Shown piece by piece: positions 44,885 to 47,698 of a DNA stretch of 64,000 bases (position 1 is its first letter; each line of letters begins with the position of its first letter). The notes under the pieces are model-generated. The model did no database searches. It saw only the letters and a program-made list of their open reading frames with translations, and was not told where the DNA came from. Position numbers and translations under genes: made by a program. Source of the stretch: an uncultured Cohaesibacter sp. (GTDB lineage Bacteria > Pseudomonadota > Alphaproteobacteria > Rhizobiales > Cohaesibacteraceae). The DNA lies in contig NZ_OY762905.1 in NCBI RefSeq assembly GCF_963666525.1, positions 2,214,001 through 2,278,000 of the forward strand, written 5' to 3'.

Positions 44885-45928
44885 TCAGGCTTCAGCGCGT
44901 GGCTTGACCAGACCGCGGTTGATCAGGGCTTCGGCAATCTGAATGGTGTTGAGGGCTGCACCCTTGCGCAGGTTGTCGGAAACAACCCAGATGTTGAGAC
45001 CATTCTCGACCGTCGCATCTTCACGGATACGGGAGATGTAGGTTGCATCTTCACCAGCGGCTTCTGCCGGGGTGATATAGCCGCCATCTTCACGCTTGTC
45101 GATGACCAGGCAGCCCGGCGCTTCACGCAGGATATCGCGGGCTTCGTCAGCCGTGATCGGCTTTTCGAATTCGATGTTGACCGCTTCGGCATGGGATACG
45201 AAAACCGGAACACGCACGGCGGTGCAGGTCACCTTGATCTTCGGATCGAGCATTTTCTTGGTTTCGGCAACGACCTTCCATTCTTCCTTGGTGTAGCCGT
45301 CTTCCATGAACTTGTCGATGTGCGGGATCACGTTGTAGGCGATTCGCTTGGTGAACTTGTGCACTTCGATCGGATCGGAAACCAGCACAGCGCGGGTCTG
45401 GGTGAACAGTTCGTCCATGGCTTCCTTGCCGGCGCCGGAAACGGACTGGTAGGTCGCAACCACGATGCGCTTGATGGTTGCCGCGTCATGCAGGGGCTTC
45501 AGAGCCACGAGCAGCTGCGCCGTCGAGCAGTTCGGGTTGGCGATGATGTTGATGCGATCTTTCTTCTTGATCCACTCTTCCAGCACCGGAGCGTTCACTT
45601 CCGGAACGATCAGCGGGATCCGCTCGTCATAGCGCCACTGGGAGCTGTTGTCGACAACGATGCAGCCCTGAGCCGCGATCTTGGGAGCCCATTCGGCAGA
45701 GATGCTGCCACCAGCGGACATCAGACAGAAATCGGTGTCGGAAAAATCATAATTGTCCAGAACCTGACATTTCAGAATCTTGTCACCGAAGGACACTTCC
45801 TTGCCCTTGGAACGGCTGGAAGCCAATGCCACGACTTCATCTGCAGGGAACCCGCGTTCGGCAAGAATGTCGAGCATTTCACGGCCCACATTGCCCGTAG
45901 CCCCGACGACTGCAACTTTATAACCCAT
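44885..45928 (-). CDS. asd: Aspartate-semialdehyde dehydrogenase
   Basis: 347 residues from the ATG at 45928, about 10 bases after AGGAG. The NADP site VAVVGATGNVGREML is at the N-terminus, the catalytic Cys in ANPNCSTAQLLVAL, and the substrate-binding segment QSVSGAGKEAMDEL. It makes aspartate semialdehyde, the branch-point precursor of Lys, DAP, Met, Thr and Ile. A short ORF with ten Thr codons lies 125 bases upstream on the same strand and may control it. Confidence 0.96.
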   Translation of the reverse strand: MGYKVAVVGATGNVGREMLDILAERGFPADEVVALASSRSKGKEVSFGDKILKCQVLDNYDFSDTDFCLMSAGGSISAEWAPKIAAQGCIVVDNSSQWRYDERIPLIVPEVNAPVLEEWIKKKDRINIIANPNCSTAQLLVALKPLHDAATIKRIVVATYQSVSGAGKEAMDELFTQTRAVLVSDPIEVHKFTKRIAYNVIPHIDKFMEDGYTKEEWKVVAETKKMLDPKIKVTCTAVRVPVFVSHAEAVNIEFEKPITADEARDILREAPGCLVIDKREDGGYITPAEAAGEDATYISRIREDATVENGLNIWVVSDNLRKGAALNTIQIAEALINRGLVKPRAEA

Positions 45929-46052
45929 TTTCAATGATCTCCTGATCCGCAAGCTCCCCCGAGGTTGCCACCCGGCCTGTCGCTTGCGCGCTGGCGGGCG
46001 GTTTCGCTCCCCTCACATCCCTGGGGGAAGCCAGACAGGGAGCGAGAGGGGC
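45929..46052 (-). promoter_or_regulatory. Candidate attenuation leader of asd
   Basis: The untranslated stretch between the Thr-rich ORF and asd has competing pairings on the minus strand: TCGCTCCC with GGGAGCGA (hairpin 1), CCTGTC with GACAGG (partly exclusive with it), GCAAGC with GCTTGC (hairpin 2), and CTCCCTG with the asd RBS region CAGGAG. No U-run is present, so control of translation rather than termination would be expected. Structures were found by eye only. Confidence 0.4.
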
Positions 46053-46166
46053 CTAAACCTTGGTGGTGGTAGTGGTTGTTGTGGTTGTGGTCTGGCCAGC
46101 AGTGAAGGCACCGGCGAGGACGCCAGCGGTCTTGCGCATCATTGCTGTTTTCATTTTGAGTGCCAT
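46053..46166 (-). CDS. Thr-rich putative leader peptide of asd
   Basis: 37 codons from ATG 46166 to TAG 46053; a later in-frame ATG at 46154 is possible. The peptide starts MALKMKTAMMRKTAG and ends GQ, ten consecutive Thr, KV. Fourteen of its 37 residues are Thr, four Met and four Lys, all products of the aspartate family made through Asd. It has no clear Shine-Dalgarno sequence. Position and composition recall ThrL of E. coli. The idea of a regulatory leader is inference. Confidence 0.5.
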   Translation of the reverse strand: MALKMKTAMMRKTAGVLAGAFTAGQTTTTTTTTTTKV

Positions 46167-46370
46167 TGTCACAAACTCACGTGCGGCAGCGAGTGCCCAA
46201 CCCTCTCGGTTCACGTCAAGCCTTTTGCGGTATGGGTGCGCGCAAGTCAAGACAAAATACTCACAATTTGCTGATCGTGGTACGGAATCGACCGAAAAGA
46301 ACAGCCCGTGGAACCCTGAGATGCTGTTCCGCGCTTGAACAATCACAGAAAAGCAGGTTAAAGAGCAATC

Positions 46371-46643
46371 ATGACAGAGCATGATCCAAAATCGCGGCAC
46401 CAACGCCAGGACGACAAGGCCCGGGAAGCCCAGCGCATTCTCGACCGTGTCGACATGGAAGGCGAAGCCCTTGGCACCTCGGCCTTTGCCCGCACGGCAA
46501 ACCGGGCACGGCAGCACCTTGGCGCCGAAGATGCGGACCAGAACGACCCGATCGAGATCTGGGGCACCCGCATCGGGCGCATTGGTGGCGTTATTTTTGC
46601 AATCTTTCTGGTTCTGTGGCTTGTCACTCATTTCACACGATGA
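46371..46643 (+). CDS. Small C-terminally anchored membrane protein
   Basis: 90 residues. A charged, Arg/Asp/Gln-rich cytoplasmic part (1-68) is followed by one transmembrane helix (IGGVIFAIFLVLWLVTHF) and a two-residue tail. The N-terminal half looks helical. The type is seen as a hypothetical protein in Rhizobiales, but no function is known to me. It is about 100 bases upstream of argC and could share its transcript. Confidence 0.7.
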   Translation: MTEHDPKSRHQRQDDKAREAQRILDRVDMEGEALGTSAFARTANRARQHLGAEDADQNDPIEIWGTRIGRIGGVIFAIFLVLWLVTHFTR

Positions 46644-46741
46644 CAAAAGACCCATAGTGCTGTAATCAGGATCCAGACACGGATCAGTTCCCCCACCCCG
46701 TGATCAATCAACCGCCCATTCAGGCTATCAGGCAGAAGACA

Positions 46742-47698
46742 ATGAAGACAAAACTATTCATCGACGGCGAAGCAGGTACCACCGGATTGCAGATTCGGAC
46801 CCGCCTTGAGGCCCGCGACGATATCAAATTCCTGCGCTTGCCTGAAAATCTGCGCAAGGACGCCGAAGCACGGGCGCAGATGCTCAACGAGGCAGACATC
46901 GCCATCCTCTGCCTGCCCGATGCGGCAGCCATCGAAGCGGTCAGCCTGATCGAGAGCAAGGACACACGCGTCATTGACGCCTCCACCGCCCATCGGACCG
47001 CCAAGGGCTGGACCTATGGCTTTGCCGAACTCGCTCCGGATCAGCGCGACAAGATCGCAGCGTCCAAGCGGGTCGCCAACCCCGGCTGCTATCCGCAAGG
47101 CTATATCGCCATCATGCGGCCGCTCGTCGATGCGGGCATCATTCCGGCCACCTTCCCGGCAACCCTGAATGCCATCTCGGGCTATTCCGGCGGCGGCAAG
47201 GGCATGATCGCCGACTATGAACGCGAAGAGAACCCGGTGACCGTACCTTACTGGCCCTACGGCCTGACACTGGCACACAAGCATGTGCCGGAGATGACCT
47301 TTTATGCCGGCCTCGACCATCCGCCGGTCTTCCAGCCAGCCGTTGGCCTCTACGCTCAGGGCATGATCGACGCGGTGCCGCTCAACCTCTGGGCGCTCGA
47401 CAGCAAAGTCAAGCTGGCCGATCTGCACGCCTGCCTCGAGCGGCGCTACAGGGATGAGGTCTTTGTTCGGGTGGCCCCGCTGGAGGCGGCAGGACGCCTT
47501 GAAGCGATCACGCCGGAAAAGCTCAACGGCACCAACTCGCTCCACCTTCACATTCACGGCAATGACGAAACCGGACAGGCCGTCTTGCTGGCAGTTTACG
47601 ACAATCTGGGCAAAGGCGCCTCTGGCGCTGCCATTCAGAACATGAACATCATGATGGGCATTGACGAGACCACCGGTCTCACCATTGCCGATCTCTAA
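46742..47698 (+). CDS. argC: N-acetyl-gamma-glutamyl-phosphate reductase (short type)
   Basis: 318 residues from the ATG at 46742 ([17 protein letters not shown], the NADP site of the short ArgC type). The catalytic Cys is in [25 protein letters not shown] and LAHKHVPEM follow. It performs the third step of arginine synthesis. An earlier in-frame ATG at 46700 is less likely. leuD begins 20 bases after the stop. Confidence 0.95.

Follow-up and report, generated by a model that had tools for sequence, protein, structure and literature searches.

The aspartate-semialdehyde dehydrogenase gene (asd) of an uncultured Cohaesibacter sp. is preceded by a short open reading frame (ORF) ending in a run of Thr codons, and comparison with related loci makes it almost certain that this ORF belongs to a conserved leader-peptide element of asd. 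There is a high probability that the asd leader is a ribosome-mediated attenuator, and we consider it probable that this attenuator acts in cis on the asd mRNA, senses Thr and Lys together, and works on translation. Sequence comparison supports the Thr/Lys-rich frame, its site before asd, a covarying pairing (strand 1 with strand 3, hereafter 1:3) next to the ribosome-binding site (RBS) of asd, and the absence of a terminator. The first-pass annotation, which had proposed a Thr-rich leader with translational control of asd, was thus upheld in part.

The window, that is, the whole stretch of DNA analysed (64,000 nucleotides; contig NZ_OY762905.1, positions 2,214,001 to 2,278,000), contains the features listed in Table 1. 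The window sequence agreed with the first-pass description of a 37-codon ORF with ten consecutive Thr codons, AAG, GTT and TAG before asd, and of a gap lacking a U-run; the gap from the leader stop to the asd ATG (45928) was measured as 124 bases, not 125. The leader peptide (37 aa, translated from the window sequence and the ORF list) is MALKMKTAMMRKTAGVLAGAFTAGQTTTTTTTTTTKV. Its last 12 codons include ten for Thr and one for Lys, the last Thr codon being three codons before the stop, so that the leader has the short ORF with clustered cognate codons expected of a ribosome-mediated attenuator. No clear Shine-Dalgarno sequence was seen by eye ahead of the leader ATG (46166). The asd RBS was assigned as the best match to the 16S tail. 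At least seven ACN codons in a row were found at three sites in the 5.18-Mb genome, namely the asd leader and two long ORFs, which presumably resemble flagellar genes.

Table 1. Positions of the asd leader elements in the window
Feature	Position	Strand	Remarks
Promoter-like element	46223..46251	-	CTTGAC (46251-46246), 17-nt spacer, GCAAAA (46228-46223); conserved in the genus
GAGAGGG in the 5'UTR	46201..46207	-	Complementary to CCCUCUC right after the leader stop; conserved in the genus
Leader ORF	46053..46166	-	37 codons and stop, ATG 46166 to TAG 46053; C-terminus kept in relatives
Ten consecutive Thr codons	46062..46091	-	Putative regulatory codons; followed by AAG, GTT, TAG
Strand 0	46046..46051	-	CCCCUC, directly after the leader stop; partner is strand 2 (GAGGGG)
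CUCCCUG	46036..46042	-	With CAGGG, forms the inner part of the 0:2 hairpin; in the alternative state, candidate partner of the asd RBS (CUCC:GGAG)
Strand 1	46024..46031	-	GCUUCCCC, within the 0:2 hairpin loop; partner is strand 3; cross-family covariation
Strand 2	46005..46023	-	CAGGG (46023-46019) and GAGGGGAGCG (46014-46005)
Strand 3	45953..45960	-	GGGGGAGC, 9 nt upstream of the asd RBS core; covariation with strand 1
asd RBS	45939..45943	-	AGGAG; best 16S tail match
asd	44885..45928	-	Aspartate-semialdehyde dehydrogenase, 347 aa; NCBIfam NF011456 and TIGR01296, each above cut-off

The comparison covered 110 asd loci (some of them identical, e.g. L020/L053 and L021/L061), 100 further loci from the order and 40 loci from other orders of the class; Asd was detected in 61/61, 242/249 and 98/114 genomes of three genome sets searched with different cut-offs. 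A locus was scored as having the leader when an open frame of at least 10 codons, with or without a start codon, had at least four Thr in its last 14 codons and a stop 55-200 nt before asd. By this rule the leader was present at all 19 loci of the genus, at 77 of the 79 loci L033-L111, at 62 of 98 loci of the order sample and at 3 of 40 loci outside the order. Dinucleotide-shuffled upstream regions satisfied the same rule in 0.7-2.4% of cases (12 loci, L020-L031, were excluded from this test); with the threshold raised to at least five Thr, 19/19 genus loci stood against 0 to 0.2% of shuffled regions. Note that two genus loci, L014 and L032, are identical over 300 bases of the asd leader. Sorted by family label (L002-L031 and L112-L211), a Thr-rich frame was found in 89 of 130 loci (L154 and L155, which had no candidate frame, were counted as misses) and in 24 of 41 families, the other 17 families having no leader before asd by the four-Thr rule. 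The alignment check suggested in the first-pass annotation, a Thr run in relatives with varying flanks, therefore gave a positive result, and the lack of the run in close relatives, named there as a reason to abandon the idea, was not observed in the genus. At the three loci outside the order (L216, L218 and L238), Thr accounted for 7, 5 and 4 of the last 14 codons; because of these Thr-rich frames, the leader may be older than the order or may have been transferred.

The leader ends in TTTTTTTKV in much of the genus, in SKTKAKTTTKTV in Rhizobium, in IRITAKTTIKTV in Agrobacterium and in KTTTTKTTV/A in several Stappiaceae; the N-terminal part of the peptide varies among relatives and the Thr/Lys end is kept. 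Over the last eight sense codons of 16 genus rows, pairwise differences at codon positions 1, 2 and 3 numbered 106, 95 and 226, so these codons behave like a translated frame. In the 62 order-sample loci, which were picked by Thr alone, the last 14 codons contained 136 Lys and 1 Asn, whereas the stretch 29-42 codons ahead of the stop had 18 and 19, respectively; on this comparison, Lys is a second conserved and putatively regulatory codon of the asd leader. In a set of 67 representatives with little similarity to one another, which had been chosen for Thr and, to a small extent, for Lys, the last 12 codons were 48.5% Thr, 17.2% Lys, 1.4% Met and 2.5% Ile. The ORF had also been called rich in Met and Lys; the Lys part holds across the relatives, and the Met part holds in the window and fails among the relatives. 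In the same genome, no Thr-, Lys-, Met- or Ile-rich frame was found by criterion before hom1, lysC, two dapA genes and thrC, the test being weak for thrC, whose start was taken as the first Met (residue 69 of the open frame) and is probably wrong; no Thr run was seen by eye upstream of hom2.

One paper on Sinorhizobium meliloti, presumably that of Hadjeras et al. 2023, describes a similar ORF. In the available part of that report (PMC10117765), SEP5 is a translated sORF in a 5'UTR, possibly a leader peptide, with six Thr and three Lys codons near its 3' end; it is stated to be conserved only in Sinorhizobium, and the gene downstream is called aspartate dehydrogenase by the authors. Ensifer leaders L108 and L109 end in CKTTAKTTTKTV, with six Thr and three Lys, upstream of asd. 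Since codon counts and position agree with the account of SEP5, the Ensifer asd leader is very likely the same element. The element described here spans the order and has a covarying pairing, whereas the available part of the SEP5 report gives no RNA structure; in the literature as far as it was accessible, SEP5 was found and a description of an asd attenuator in other genera was not.

The same paper, in the part available, reports a trp attenuator of S. meliloti, rnTrpL/peTrpL, which is likewise an alphaproteobacterial leader peptide of an amino-acid gene (PMC10117765). It differs in having Trp codons and in working through transcription attenuation that yields an sRNA. Both peTrpL and rnTrpL have functions in trans, and tagged SEP5 was found in the soluble fraction (PMC10117765, as far as available), which would fit an asd leader ORF encoding a functional small protein or a leader acting as a trans-acting RNA. 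We regard this as improbable: conservation is confined to the Thr/Lys end of the peptide, the N-terminal part being variable, and a 24-base motif of the Rhizobium-type leader end had a single match in 61 genomes, located upstream of asd. Note that all loci were fetched via asd, and other sites were covered by the ACN-run scan, the pathway-gene frames and the 24-base motif search only. It is more improbable still, to the point of being nearly negligible, that the ORF is of low complexity by chance. ACN repeats arise easily and 17 of 41 families have no leader, but the shuffle controls, the position before asd, the Lys:Asn ratio of 136:1 and the translation published for S. meliloti (PMC10117765, in the part available) all argue otherwise.

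For the RNA between the leader and asd, a cross-family alignment (A1) was made from sequence only, with 60 of 83 rows listed from 167 leaders with high Thr score (gap 95-135 nt; at most eight Rhizobiaceae listed, five used). Alignments A2 and A3 had 16 and 13 rows, and the structure sets did not include L058 and L162. An 8-bp 1:3 helix, placed by eye from one row, was paired in 81.9% of cells of A1 as against 77.1 +/- 0.9 in the shuffled control (0 of 500), with 39 cells changed on both sides as against 15.3 +/- 5.5 (0 of 500) and with such changes at 7 of 8 pairs as against 4.2; one pair occurred as UA (23), CG (19) and UG (14). Versions of the helix slid along the alignment were 55.5-71.3% paired. 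When strand 1 was taken as the region 18-50 nt past the stop and strand 3 as the last 48 nt before asd, their complementarity exceeded that of shuffles (Fisher p 3e-12; 16 of 67 representatives at p of 0.05 or less), that of 1:2 did so more weakly (p 0.003; 10 of 67), and neither 0:3 nor 0:2 was above chance in the 67 representatives (p 0.35 and 0.89); these p-values are too small, because the representatives share ancestry. A species' own 1:3 pair was also more stable than species-mixed pairs, with only 7 of 2,000 permutations as good. Of seven region pairs tested in this way, 1:3 was the only significant one, and negative results were obtained with two reversed controls. The 1:3 pairing beside the asd RBS is thus well supported by the comparison, and the compensatory changes in a gap stem that the first-pass annotation had advised looking for were found, across families.

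Within single clades the strands vary less. In the 16 genus rows, 0:2 was paired in 95.8% of cells and hardly varied, and 1:3 (GCUUCCCC:GGGGGAGC) was paired in 100% of lettered cells, most pairs being invariant (UG/CG/UA at one pair and CG/UG at another); the column-shuffle control was not significant for 0:2 and 1:3 in the genus, whose strands hardly vary. An analogous 0:2 hairpin with strand 1 in its loop was seen in Stappiaceae (AU/GC/GU at one pair, UA to AU at another), where the column-shuffle control for 0:2 and 1:3 was not significant on any measure. The first-pass annotation had supposed mutually exclusive pairings in the gap, one of them CTCCCTG with CAGGAG. For the first part, 1:3 has covariation on its side, and 0:2 fits two clades but is not above chance over the 67 representatives. 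For the second, a partial pairing (CUCC:GGAG) is predicted as the end of a longer helix, and the covarying pairing is 1:3, which lies 5' of the RBS; genus covariation says nothing about CTCCCTG:CAGGAG, because both strands hardly vary within the genus. The 0:3 pairing stood out in many minimum-energy folds but was rejected as a conserved pairing, being broken in many relatives and not above shuffles. RNAalifold gave no pairs on A1, a 50-nt window scan found no strongly structured stretch common to all, and the window's own leader was no more stable than shuffled versions, 44 of 200 of which folded as well (z -0.68). For the 67 representatives, leader RNA past the stop had a mean z of -1.63, with 47 of 67 below -1.

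To predict the effect of ribosome position, the RNA was cut 13 nt downstream of where the A-site codon begins, which is a crude approximation of a ribosome. On moving the ribosome from eight codons before the stop to the stop, the predicted 0:2 hairpin fell from 0.69 to 0.02 in the genus, from 0.58 to 0.20 in Stappiaceae and from 0.32 to 0.25 in other clades; it was absent from the predictions for Rhizobiaceae. In the window, predicted pairing of the asd RBS with an early strand rose from 0.00 (ribosome upstream) to 0.67 (ribosome at the stop), through a CUCC:GGAG extension of the 1:3 helix, and this switch appeared only for ribosome edges 13 and 16 nt past the first stop base, not 10 or 19. 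These predictions suggest that with a stalled ribosome the strand after the stop would be available to sequester the anti-RBS strand, and that a ribosome at the stop codon would let anti-RBS and RBS pair. This is the reverse of the earlier proposal that a ribosome stalled on the Thr codons covers the anti-RBS, with which the distances do not agree: with 13 nt assumed, the ribosome edge lies near the stop, and CTCCCTG lies 11-17 nt past it. From the upstream position to the stop, predicted RBS pairing increased in 11 of 16 genus rows and decreased in 4; the corresponding counts were 1 up and 6 down among 13 Stappiaceae, 5 up and 28 down among 60 Rhizobiaceae, and 10 up and 21 down among 55 other rows. 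Because this test differs between clades, the direction of the switch is supported in the genus only, while 1:3 is well supported. Over all clades, equilibrium RBS accessibility hardly changed with ribosome position, and a simple RBS-masking switch for all clades was rejected, predicted masking being unchanged or lower in most rows outside the genus. The earlier guess of translational control comes out with the balance slightly in its favour, although the predicted masking is inconsistent outside the genus.

The mechanism that we favour would run as follows. Transcription from an upstream promoter would give an asd mRNA whose leader encodes a short peptide with mostly Thr and Lys in its last ten or so codons, Thr and Lys being two end products that need Asd. 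When charged tRNA is scarce, the ribosome would stall on these codons; otherwise it would reach the stop. Its position would decide between local pairing of strand 0, which removes strand 1, and pairing of strand 1 with both strand 3 and the RBS, and the pairing chosen would set asd translation. In the window, a ribosome stalled upstream is predicted to leave the RBS free (ON) and a ribosome at the stop to leave it paired (OFF). In its fullest form the proposal is an order-wide translational attenuator without a terminator, in which one peptide would read both Thr and Lys and adjust the branch-point enzyme Asd by means of a covarying helix beside the RBS; in the window, the site would be closed by a ribosome that has reached the stop and not by one that has stalled. 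This form is tentative, and we put it a little short of an even chance.

In the translational attenuators of ermC, ermB and cat, a stalled leader ribosome frees a masked RBS; there the stall comes from a drug, not from shortage of aminoacyl-tRNA. The LEU element of Actinobacteria, in the accessible part of its description, has a leader ORF with a run of Leu codons that pair with the Shine-Dalgarno box, and its authors leave the mechanism open (PMC1262725). It shares with the asd leader a regulatory codon run and a pairing involving the Shine-Dalgarno box, and differs in that the codons themselves pair with the box and in phylum and amino acid. As far as its description was available, it is the closest case found in which a run of leader codons is linked with a Shine-Dalgarno box.

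In E. coli, thrL encodes a leader peptide rich in Thr (and Ile) codons and controls thrABC via an intrinsic terminator. The asd leader resembles it as a Thr-rich leader peptide before a gene of the Thr pathway, and differs in preceding asd, in combining Thr with Lys, in lacking a terminator and in not matching the Thr_leader model. Classical transcription attenuation of this type would suit the leader-peptide anatomy and the GC-rich hairpins in the gap. A run of at least five T after the stop was present in only 5 of 154 distinct leaders, the longest run being four or fewer in 149 (L048, L070, L127, L131, L135, L198 and L206, with gaps below 90 nt, were dropped from this count and from the RBS-pairing test), so that an intrinsic terminator before asd is unlikely. 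A terminator scan of window positions 45850-46750 gave none on the leader strand and one site on the other strand. In Rfam, the window leader and five relatives had no match near the gathering score, and Thr_leader (RF00506), which the available part of one report places before thrA of Shewanella (PMC2659441), had no match in the window leader (E up to 10) or in the five relatives (E up to 1); the intrinsic terminator typical of RF00506, a hairpin and U-run before the gene, was likewise not found. On these grounds classical attenuation is quite improbable, and the proposal of a Thr leader peptide for asd without a terminator is sustained by conservation, by the covarying pairing in the gap and by the T-run counts. 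As a separate observation, the contig with the asd leader of L028 has a weak His_leader match at 1328-1470 (29.4 bits; gathering score 49), possibly through a shared attenuator-like shape.

The main rival is the same leader with Rho-dependent termination, in which ribosome release at the stop would bare a C-rich stretch that a stalled ribosome or an alternative hairpin would hide. It would account for the absence of intrinsic terminators and for predicted RBS accessibility that does not switch consistently, and over the 45 nt after the stop the mean C content (0.40) is above that of G (0.32). Only 15 of 154 leaders, however, have more than 1.5 times as much C as G, the post-stop leaders are on average more stably folded than shuffled sequence (mean z -1.63), and the covarying strand 3 adjoins the RBS, which Rho does not need; we judge this output unlikely, at perhaps one chance in a handful.

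CTTGACTT and CAAAA of the promoter-like element are conserved in 15/15 aligned genus leaders (GCAAAA in 13/15), with promoter-type spacing, and the element ends about 56 nt upstream of the leader ATG. Of 167 loci, near-identical ones being retained, 123 had a CTTGAC-like hexamer 90-330 nt upstream of the leader stop, as against a mean of 17.7 in mononucleotide shuffles; the hexamer closest to the stop was used, in L002 a second copy. A generic sigma-70 promoter scan gave none at the leader upstream region. Because the promoter-like element is conserved upstream of the leader ORF, the sequence favours one transcript for the leader ORF and asd, and points away from a transcription start downstream of the ORF, which the first-pass annotation had named as a refutation. 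The 5'UTR element GAGAGGG is present in 14/15 aligned genus leaders and AGAGGG in 15/15. In L011 and L013, an insert of about 50 nt lies between the promoter-like element and AGAGGG with the flanking conserved elements retained, AGAGGG being kept in L011 and GAGAGGG in L013. By eye, several leader ORFs of Rhizobiaceae (e.g. L044 and L074) contain CCGGCA..UGCCGG-like inverted repeats before the Thr/Lys codons, a possible pause hairpin.

If the proposed mechanism is true, a large order of symbionts and environmental species would control the aspartate family through a leader peptide responsive to both Thr and Lys, and the control would fall at the gene shared by the Lys, Thr, Met and Ile pathways, the bacteria making more Asd when Thr or Lys is low. 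It would also give a function and an order-wide context to the S. meliloti small ORF whose role was guessed, and would provide a natural set for studying attenuators without terminators.
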